From Lachnospiraceae bacterium (GTDB lineage: Bacteria; Bacillota; Clostridia; Lachnospirales; Lachnospiraceae): DNA of 64,000 bases. Location: NCBI GenBank assembly GCA_017432565.1, contig JAFRIW010000022.1, positions 1 to 64,000 on the forward strand, in the 5' to 3' direction. Positions 6,534 through 12,381 of this stretch are shown in pieces. Made by a program: the position numbers and the translations under genes. The notes beneath the pieces were generated by a model. That model did not search any database, was not told the DNA's origin, and saw nothing but the letters and a program-made list of their open reading frames with translations. How positions within the stretch are numbered: position 1 is the stretch's first letter; every line of letters starts with the position of its first letter.

Positions 6534-8702
6534 ATGAAAAAGCTGTTTGGCATCAGGCCGGGCGGACTGAAAAGGAAAATGGCAATCCTTGTGCTGACAA
6601 TCCTGATTGTGACCGTTGCGGTTCTTTCAGTCTTCTCCGAGCTGCGGAGCAGGATCCTGACCCGGATTGTGGGAGAGACCCGGATCGAGCAGACTGCGGC
6701 GATTTCACAGGTCTCCGGGGATACCATGGACGCGATGATGAAGAGCGCGCTCGTCGATTCGATCGAGCTGCAGGCCAACATCGCGGACAATGACTTTACC
6801 GAAATCGTCAACGAGACTTACATGCTGCAGTCCATGGCGCAGGGTGTCATTGAAAACCGGGACAGTCTGGATCCCATGGAGGTTCTGCCGCCGGATCCGG
6901 AAAAGGACGGGGAGCCGTCGGTCATGGTCCTGTGCGAGGCAGGCGTGGACTACAAAAGGTCCAGGTATCTCGGGCTGATGGCGCACCTGGGCACGCCGAT
7001 GCTCGCGATGCTTGCGAATTCCGAGAAGATCGACGCCTGTTATGTCGGCCTCGCGGACGGGACATTTTTCTGCGTGGACGACAGCACGAAGAACCGGTTT
7101 GATGAGAACGGGAAGCTGAAAGCTTTTCCGGTGCGTGAGCGGCCCTGGTACAAAGGCGCGCTGGAGACAGGGCGGCTGTATTTTACGGGAATCGAGACGG
7201 ACGCCTTCAGCGGTGTACAGAGCCTGACCTGCTCTGCACCGATCATCGTGGACGGCAAGACGCTCGGCGTCGTCGGCATTGACATCATACTCGACAATAT
7301 GCGTGATTTTGTCCACTCCGCGTCAGGCGGCGGCAGTTATGCGTTTATTGTCAATCAGGCGGGAGAGGTTCTGCTCGCGCCGCCGGACAACGGCCTGTTT
7401 GAAATCGGACAGGATCTCGGAGCGTCCGAAAATGCGGAAGTGCAGGAATTTGTCCGGGAGGCGCTGGACAGCACGACACGGCTCGCGATTCTCACCCTGG
7501 GCGGAAAACAGTATTATGCGGCCGGCTCGCCCATGCCGACGGTCGGCTGGGCAGCGATTGCTTTGGTCGACAAGGAGATCACGGAGGCGCCGGAGAAGCA
7601 GATGCTGGCGGAATATGACCGGATCAATGAAGACGCGACGGCCGCCTTCCGGGCCAGCTCGGACCGGCTCAAATGGGCGAACCGCCTGGCGATCACACTG
7701 CTGCTGCTCTTCAGCATCGCCGTTGCGCTGCGCGCGGCGGGCAAAATCTCGCGTCCCCTCGAGGAGATGACCGACAATATCATTGACAGCAGCGAAACCG
7801 GAAGATTGTTCGAGATGAAGGACAGTTACCGGACCAATGATGAAATCGAAGTGCTGGCGCTGTCTTTTGACGAGTTGTCGAAGAGGACGAAGCAGTACAT
7901 CGAGGACATCACGCAGATCACAAAGGAAAAGGAGCGGGTCAGCACGGAGCTGAACATGGCAAATCAGATTCAGACCAGCATGCTGCCGCATATTTTCCCT
8001 GCGTTCCCGGACCGGAAGGAATTCGATCTGTATGCCAAAATGGACCCCGCGAGAGAGGTCGGCGGCGATTTCTATGACTTCTTCCTGATCGACGAGGATC
8101 ATCTGTGCATGGTCATGGCGGACGTGAGCGGCAAGGGCATTCCGGCGGCTCTGTTCATGATGATTTCCAAAGTCATCCTGCAGAGCTGCGCCATGCTGGG
8201 ACGGTCTCCTGCCGAAATTCTGGAGAAGACCAACGAGGCGCTGTGCTCCAGCAACCAGGTCGAGATGTTCGTCACGGTCTGGCTGGGAATCCTGGAGATC
8301 TCGACCGGAAAGATCACGGCGGCCAACGCCGGCCACGAATATCCCGCGATGACAAAAGACGGAACCTTCGAGCTGCTCAAGGGCAGACACGGTTTTGTCA
8401 TCGGCGGCCTGGAGGGCGTCGTCTATCACGAGTATGAACTGCAGATGAAGCCGGGCGATAAGCTGTTCCTGTACACCGACGGTGTGCCGGAGGCGACGGA
8501 TGCTCAGAATCAGATGTTCGGCACCGGCCGCATGCTCGAAGCCCTCAACCGGGAGAAGGATGCGGACTCGGAGAAAATCCTGGAGAATGTCCGGGAGGAT
8601 CTCGACAAATTTGTCAGCGGCGCGGAGCAGTTCGACGATCTGACCATGCTCTGCATCGAATACAACGGGGCGGACGTTAATAAGAATCAGACGCAGGAGT
8701 GA
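6534..8702 (+). CDS. Cache-HAMP-SpoIIE/PP2C phosphatase (RsbU-like)
   Basis: This 722-residue membrane phosphatase is predicted to sense an extracellular signal and dephosphorylate a STAS-type anti-anti-sigma factor. TM1 is at about 14-36. An extracytoplasmic dCache-like sensor spans about 40-378 (RERPWYKGAL and GVVGIDI are typical). TM2 is at about 383-403, HAMP at about 405-465, and the PP2C domain at about 490-715, with the metal-binding stretches EVGGDFYDFF and ADVSGKG and the C-terminal EQFDDLTML. The start follows GAAGAGGAG. A methyltransferase gene follows after 10 bases. No STAS or anti-sigma gene is adjacent, so the target lies elsewhere. It resembles the C-terminal half of the second SpoIIE protein at 60248-62620. 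Confidence 0.9.
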   Translation: MKKLFGIRPGGLKRKMAILVLTILIVTVAVLSVFSELRSRILTRIVGETRIEQTAAISQVSGDTMDAMMKSALVDSIELQANIADNDFTEIVNETYMLQSMAQGVIENRDSLDPMEVLPPDPEKDGEPSVMVLCEAGVDYKRSRYLGLMAHLGTPMLAMLANSEKIDACYVGLADGTFFCVDDSTKNRFDENGKLKAFPVRERPWYKGALETGRLYFTGIETDAFSGVQSLTCSAPIIVDGKTLGVVGIDIILDNMRDFVHSASGGGSYAFIVNQAGEVLLAPPDNGLFEIGQDLGASENAEVQEFVREALDSTTRLAILTLGGKQYYAAGSPMPTVGWAAIALVDKEITEAPEKQMLAEYDRINEDATAAFRASSDRLKWANRLAITLLLLFSIAVALRAAGKISRPLEEMTDNIIDSSETGRLFEMKDSYRTNDEIEVLALSFDELSKRTKQYIEDITQITKEKERVSTELNMANQIQTSMLPHIFPAFPDRKEFDLYAKMDPAREVGGDFYDFFLIDEDHLCMVMADVSGKGIPAALFMMISKVILQSCAMLGRSPAEILEKTNEALCSSNQVEMFVTVWLGILEISTGKITAANAGHEYPAMTKDGTFELLKGRHGFVIGGLEGVVYHEYELQMKPGDKLFLYTDGVPEATDAQNQMFGTGRMLEALNREKDADSEKILENVREDLDKFVSGAEQFDDLTMLCIEYNGADVNKNQTQE

Positions 8703-11413: not shown

Positions 11414-11430
11414 ACAGGTAAACCACCTGT
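11414..11430. promoter_or_regulatory. Inverted repeat in MATE/regulator divergent region
   Basis: ACAGGT at 11414-11419 and ACCTGT at 11425-11430 form a perfect inverted repeat with a five-base spacer. A TATAAT hexamer for the MATE gene (minus strand, 11399-11404) lies beside it, so the repeat covers the region where the -35 box would be. It is a candidate operator for the XRE-type protein encoded next to it. Confidence 0.45.
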
Positions 11431-11484
11431 CGATTGTTGGACAGTGTTTTATCATGTATCGTTACGGTGGGAGGTGAACCGGCA

Positions 11485-12381
11485 GTGAAACAATCTTCGC
11501 TAGGATCCTATATCCGCTCCCTTCGGACACAGAAAAGACTGACCCAGCAGGCACTGGCCGATCAGCTGGGCGTCACGGACAAGGCGGTCTCGAAGTGGGA
11601 GCGAAATCTTTCATACCCTGATATTGCATTATTCCCGGCTCTGGCACGCATTCTGGACGTGACGGTGGACGAGCTGCTCGGTGCGTGTATAGATGACAAT
11701 AAGCCGACGAGACTCGTGCGGCTGTATGACCTGACACAGGACATCCGGACGCCGCTGCATATTCTGCTCGGCTGTGTGGAACTGGCAGAGGCGGACTTAA
11801 AGGATACGGAGCGGGTCGCCCGGTATCTGAAGATCATCCGGGCTTCCGGAGATTACCTGCTGAAGGCGCTGCAGAACGAGGGGATTGATCACGCCTCTCT
11901 GGGAGGAGCGATTGAGGAGGAGGCTGAGTCGTATCAGAGCACGTCGGGCCGTTATGATTTTTCCGGCAGGCGGATTCTGGTGGCGGAGGATATAGCCCTG
12001 AACCGCGAGATCGCAGCCGGCATTTTAAGTCAGACCGGGGCGGAGACGGATTTTGCCGAAGACGGGCAGGCCTGCCTTGAGAAAATCAAAGCTGCTCCGG
12101 CCGGGTATTATGACATGATTCTGATGGATCTGATGATGCCGCGGATGAACGGCGTTGATGCAGCTGCGCGGATTCGTCAGCTTGAGGATCCGGTCAAGGC
12201 GTCCATTCCGATCATCGCCATGACAGCCAGTGTCAATGAGAAAGAGCGCAGTGCGGCAATTGAGGCCGGAATGAACGCGTTTACGGAGAAGCCGGTTATG
12301 GTGGACAGTCTGTTCACGCTGATGCAGCAGTACCTTCCCCGGTCATCGGAAGACGACCGGAAACCGGCGGCAGATGCATGA
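11485..12381 (+). CDS. XRE-HTH regulator with degenerate HisKA motif and receiver domain
   Basis: This 298-residue protein has three parts. Residues about 5-62 form a Cro/C1-type HTH (TQQALADQLGVTDKAVSKWE). Residues about 80-130 look like a histidine-kinase dimerisation helix: TQDIRTPLHILLG at 84-96 copies the SHEIRTPL H-box, but Gln85 replaces the phospho-accepting His. No ATPase domain follows. Residues about 162-290 are a full receiver domain with acidic pair Glu168/Asp169, phospho-acceptor Asp215 (LMDLMMP) and Lys269 (TEKPV). The GTG at 11485 was chosen because GGGAGG lies ten bases upstream; a TTG frame from 11434 has no such site. It is divergent from a MATE exporter. It would be a phosphorylation-gated transcription factor, but its kinase is not in the window. 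Confidence 0.8.
   Translation: MKQSSLGSYIRSLRTQKRLTQQALADQLGVTDKAVSKWERNLSYPDIALFPALARILDVTVDELLGACIDDNKPTRLVRLYDLTQDIRTPLHILLGCVELAEADLKDTERVARYLKIIRASGDYLLKALQNEGIDHASLGGAIEEEAESYQSTSGRYDFSGRRILVAEDIALNREIAAGILSQTGAETDFAEDGQACLEKIKAAPAGYYDMILMDLMMPRMNGVDAAARIRQLEDPVKASIPIIAMTASVNEKERSAAIEAGMNAFTEKPVMVDSLFTLMQQYLPRSSEDDRKPAADA

Follow-up and report, generated by a model that had tools for sequence, protein, structure and literature searches.

A gene in the window (the whole 64,000-nt stretch of DNA analysed here) encodes a regulator in which an XRE-type HTH is followed by a DHp hairpin and a receiver (REC) domain, both of hybrid-histidine-kinase type, a new combination of known parts. We give about even credence to the view that this protein is an atypical self-regulating response regulator, in which the retired DHp would act both as a dimer stalk and as a docking surface for the protein's own REC, thereby gating the HTH.

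Domain layout and probable origin from hybrid kinases

The order of the domains, HTH–DHp–REC (Table 1), is not the usual one for response regulators, in which an N-terminal REC is followed by the output domain. The HTH_3, HisKA and Response_reg matches all exceed the curated Pfam cut-offs. We prefer the GTG at 11485, preceded by GGAGG, as the better start over a TTG at 11434, because the longer TTG-started frame would overlap the predicted promoter. The HisKA match (residues 81–128) reached 30.7 bits, where the cut-off is 26.9 (3.4e-7, or 3.9e-8 when the segment was scanned by itself). The Response_reg match spans residues 164–278 (2.3e-22), and the active-site residues E168/D169, D215, T246 and K269 are conserved in the family; every one of the 21 REC-bearing members has Asp215 (codon 12127–12129) and K269. 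Within the HTH, the motif TDKAVSKWER is invariant across the family alignments. Pfam returned no HATPase_c match in the 298-residue protein, and the gap of 27 residues between DHp and REC is too short for such a domain, which bears out the earlier note's reading that a catalytic ATPase domain is absent.

Table 1 Features of the regulator gene and its upstream region in the window
Feature	Position	Strand	Basis
Predicted operator TAAACCACCTGTCGATTG, imperfect dyad AAnCnAnC/GnTnGnTT	11419..11436	+	0 mismatches to family consensus
Predicted promoter	11434..11462	+	Gap-free conserved spacing, 21 family promoters
Ribosome-binding site GGAGG	11470..11474	+	Sequence
Regulator gene, 298 aa, HTH–DHp–REC	11485..12381	+	ORF and Pfam
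XRE-type HTH_3, residues 10–64	11512..11676	+	Pfam, 2.2e-12
HisKA-type DHp hairpin, residues 76–131, without ATPase domain after it	11710..11877	+	Pfam, hhalign, structure model
Gln85 at the phospho-His position, codon CAG	11737..11739	+	Sequence
His92, site +7; 21/22 in family, Asn in hybrid kinases compared	11758..11760	+	
Variable DHp–REC linker, residues 132–158, in place of kinase ATPase domain	11878..11958	+	Family comparison
Receiver domain, residues 159–284	11959..12336	+	Pfam and family conservation

In profile–profile alignment with hhalign, the family DHp matched the DHps of genuine hybrid kinases from Lachnospiraceae with a probability of 99.3 and an E value of 2.9e-20, and the DHp likeness is therefore not due to chance. 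With a HisKA match above the cut-off as well, TQDIRTPL (in TQDIRTPLH, residues 84–92) is indeed the copy of a kinase H-box that the earlier note had taken it for. The best solved relatives of the DHp profile include the GacS DHp (in its RetS complex), GacS, DivL and RetS, and the best NCBIfam matches of the REC (TorS, ArcB and BarA) are of the hybrid-kinase type. The earlier note's interpretation is partly supported. The type of the DHp and REC, the XRE HTH, the missing ATPase domain and the Gln shared with the nearest relative agree with derivation from a hybrid kinase that lost its kinase core and gained an HTH; the dimer of DHp helices and the control of DNA binding through Asp215 are predictions, and the loss of His was not a one-off event.

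Two unrelated proteins, a membrane sensor (L176) and a PAS-like protein (L172), also have a DHp that passes directly to a REC with no ATPase domain; both keep the His and have Asn at +1 (SHNIRTPLN and SHNLRTPLN). Their arrangement indicates that removal of the ATPase domain occurred more than once in these bacteria. Separately, small proteins at six loci (L146, L147, L148, L016, L027 and L053) carry an almost identical HTH with hydrophobic segments after it; such proteins are common in Firmicutes and are a possible source of the regulator's HTH.

A monomer prediction modelled the DHp as two long helices, residues 76–103 and 108–137, with a core pLDDT above 90; the full-length monomer model had a pTM of 0.62. 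A fold search with the DHp model placed HK853 near the top at a Z score of 8.6, which is within the noise for helical hairpins and is given no weight here, and matches to the full-length model were dominated by REC domains. In 20 of the 22 family members, 48 residues separate the HTH tryptophan from the His site, and the stretch from the end of the second helix to the first REC strand varies from 42 to 87 residues across the family. Read from sequence, the HTH–DHp joint is stiff and the DHp–REC tether loose.

Family and distribution

The same domain order occurs in other genomes. After removal of duplicates, 22 distinct proteins share the N-terminal layout, and 21 of them have all three domains, including the REC. 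A scan of 84,980 species genomes yielded ten full-length relatives and one truncated at a contig end; further members came from whole-genome searches, and two from contigs classed as viral. The record titles name Lachnospiraceae, Oscillospiraceae, Erysipelotrichaceae and Anaerovoracaceae, and the sources are mostly metagenome assemblies of rumen and gut; all are Firmicutes. Occurrence is patchy: within the window's genus, 9 of 62 species have a member, against 3 of 397 in its family, and there are no further members in the sampled genomes of its order and phylum. A mobile element as the carrier was rejected: searches of plasmids gave no matches, and those of phages gave a match to the REC only. 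In three genomes (L131, L132 and L133; L011), an identical sequence has a 204-aa frame that stops before the REC, and the operator is lost. We found no description of an HTH–DHp–REC family in the open-access literature, which does not prove that there is none.

Variation at the phospho-His site

The earlier note had reported Gln in place of the phospho-His. Gln85 is confirmed, and a sequencing error at this codon is ruled out, because the nearest relative (L129, 71% identity) reads TQDVRTPLH and carries Gln as well. Across the 22 members, the site is occupied by His in nine, Arg in five, Gln in three, Ser in three, Ala in one and Pro in one, leaving 13 without His. The description of the H-box as dead accordingly holds for the window's branch but not for the family as a whole, nine of whose members keep the His. 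Among hybrid-type kinases with an ATPase domain in the fetched loci, His is present in 21 of 21, and additional hybrid kinases whose ATPase domain was missed by the first pattern all retain it. A published survey found His missing in 0.9% of HisKA domains (722/76,471; PMC12632262); in this one family, by comparison, 13 of 22 members lack it, through about seven losses.

A maximum-likelihood tree was computed with the His site masked, and the minimum number of changes at the site is four with two states and eight with six. If His is ancestral and was never regained, it would have been lost roughly seven separate times, a count that is approximate because several branches of the tree are weakly supported. 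The ATPase domain is missing from every member and, by this sequence comparison, the His losses are several and later than the loss of the ATPase domain.

Residue 85 is the most variable of its box, with six residue types and 2.16 bits (over 21 rows, the Ser of one row having fallen out of register). By contrast, D86, R88, P90 and G96 are invariant in 22 of 22 (0 bits), and H92 and L95 are each kept in 21 of 22. That residue 85 drifts amid these fixed neighbours suggests that the H-box has been retained for a purpose other than phosphotransfer. The same pattern makes it quite unlikely that the DHp is a dimerization relic for which any coiled hairpin would suffice, with the REC controlling the HTH by its own dimerization: both the ATPase domain and the His have been lost and a DHp by default mediates dimerization, as such a relic would have it, but a plain stalk would be expected to conserve its hydrophobic core alone, not the charged D86 and R88 and the polar H92.

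We also considered whether the DHp might dephosphorylate the REC of the same protein, giving a self-timed switch. Phosphatase activity of HisKA domains is possible without the His, which is not essential, and requires an acidic residue at +1 and Thr or Asn at +4 (PMC12632262, PMC7005713); the first is matched by the invariant D86 and the second by T89, present in the window and in 17 of 22 members overall. We regard this reading as unlikely, given that T89 is replaced by Met or Ala in the other five, all of which lack the His, and that the DivL precedent is without phosphatase activity and stabilizes DivK~P (PMC4211667).

A conserved operator–promoter

The family consensus TAAACCAnCnGTCGATTG-n17-TGnTATnnT precedes 21 of the 22 genes with at most two mismatches and no gaps, a quality reached in none of 4400 shuffles, the best of which had three mismatches. 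In the window, the predicted −35 (TTGTTG, 11434–11439) and −10 (TATCGT, 11457–11462) are separated by a 17-nt spacer, with TG immediately 5′ of the −10; a generic promoter scan did not detect this promoter. Twelve perfect operator copies were found in a scan of 26 genomes, every one preceding a family gene, and among the loci read, copies with a fitting −10 occur only at family genes. The operator usually lies 57–75 bases upstream of the start codon, and 208 bases upstream in L127 and 595 in L010. At the last locus (1870–2400), it precedes a 176-aa ORF, without a Pfam family, that is directly upstream of the regulator; the two genes perhaps form one operon.

The operator's target appears to be the regulator gene itself, and we predict autoregulation from this placement. 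A wider regulon was rejected, as sites with two mismatches were no commoner than those of the reversed pattern and other sites lacked a −10: the window's own genome has, at three or fewer mismatches, 20 operator sites against 20 for the reversed pattern; the family-bearing genomes, family loci excluded, have 30 against 23. The centre of the dyad falls at about −41.5 relative to the predicted transcription start, a position typical of activators contacting RNA polymerase on its −35 side, although a repressor would also fit.

Conservation of the promoter in 21 of 22 members bears in turn on whether the gene is a decaying, functionless fragment. The lost His and the L131–L133 lineage, without REC and operator, might suggest so, but the REC is intact and the protein is under purifying selection (dN/dS within the Gln pair of the window and L129 is about 0.23 for the DHp and 0.12 for the REC). 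Decay is very improbable and largely refuted.

Neighbouring genes and a candidate partner kinase

Flanking genes vary between loci. MATE and SDR genes flank the regulator in the window and in G408 only; beyond these two the flanks are unrelated, and a conserved neighbour was rejected as the target. In the nearest relative, G408 (L149, 3774–6863), the MATE gene is followed by a gene for a hybrid kinase of 1029 aa, which comprises HisKA, HATPase_c and two REC domains and lies directly upstream of the regulator. Gene order around this locus otherwise matches the window, from which the kinase is missing and in which the MATE gene and the regulator are 115 bp apart. An adjoining kinase as a general partner was rejected, since G408 alone has one. 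A counterpart with 63% identity across 638 residues is encoded on contig C47 of the window's genome and is a reasonable candidate phosphodonor. At 6534–8702, the window also has a 722-aa ORF, which from its sequence looks like a membrane sensor ending in a SpoIIE/PP2C-type phosphatase domain; homologues are found close to the regulator at G408 and L005.

These kinases raise the alternative that the DHp pairs with that of a partner hybrid kinase in the manner of RetS and GacS, either inhibiting the kinase or being charged in the mixed dimer. DHp heterodimers of RetS and GacS are established (PMC12148439), both proteins are among the best solved relatives of the DHp profile, and the kinases of G408 and C47 could supply the partner. 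Nevertheless, apart from G408 the regulator gene has no neighbouring kinase at the loci compared, the window's included, and the family DHps are distant in sequence from those of the kinases, and we consider such pairing unlikely.

Proposed mechanism

In the self-regulating response regulator that we favour, the DHp hairpin would hold the protein as a dimer and keep the receiver-docking face of the kinase, having lost the ability to donate phosphate. Asp215 would be charged by another kinase, probably a hybrid kinase of the genome, or by a small phosphodonor. The flexibly tethered REC might then shift its docking on the DHp helices, comparable to DivK~P on the pseudo-kinase DivL, and this change could be relayed through the rigid HTH–DHp joint to alter binding of the HTH dimer at the −41.5 dyad in front of the regulator's own gene, the outcome being more likely activation than repression. 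In DivL, the substitutions R553A (+3) and T557N (+7) reduce DivK~P binding 8–15 fold and Y550H, at the phospho-His position, does not (PMC4211667); the equivalents here are the invariant R88 and the nearly invariant H92. The conserved residues thus fit a docking surface by analogy, which is suggestive and not proof, because D, R, P and G are conserved in HisKA domains generally and their retention could equally reflect the helix fold. Moreover, some members may still transfer phosphate, since nine of them keep the His.

A bolder version, a one-protein phospho-switch in which the DHp is the internal reader of its own REC and gates the HTH at its own promoter only, in a family whose formerly indispensable His now varies almost freely, we regard as a tentative possibility. 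Its stronger form, in which the conserved His92 (two turns further down the helix than the former site) is the present phosphoacceptor, is unlikely. The family lets one ask whether REC docking alone controls DNA binding, with parts that are small and soluble, and the His-bearing sisters together with the short predicted operator offer a natural series on the role of a DHp without phosphate transfer.

Comparison with known systems

Among the nearest counterparts is DivL of Caulobacter, a pseudo-histidine kinase whose HisKA DHp also has the phospho-His replaced (by Tyr) with neighbouring box residues retained. The DivL DHp has been shown to bind a phosphorylated receiver, whereas in the window's regulator contact between DHp and receiver is inferred; DivL also has an ATPase domain and PAS domains, contains neither HTH nor REC, and reads a separate protein, DivK. 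The Lachnospiraceae hybrid kinases, such as the 1029-aa protein of G408, share a homologous DHp and a REC of the hybrid type, but differ in having sensor and ATPase domains, in retaining the His and in lacking an HTH. RetS and GacS likewise illustrate a DHp that regulates through protein contact and not phosphate, although RetS is a membrane hybrid kinase acting on another kinase. Lambda CI, an XRE-type protein, has a site for its dimer whose centre lies close to −42 relative to PRM, the promoter of its own gene; the likeness of OR2/PRM to the predicted operator is geometric only, CI being without REC or DHp. With ordinary response regulators the protein shares an intact REC joined to a DNA-binding domain, but here the output domain is N-terminal and of the XRE type, and a DHp lies in between.
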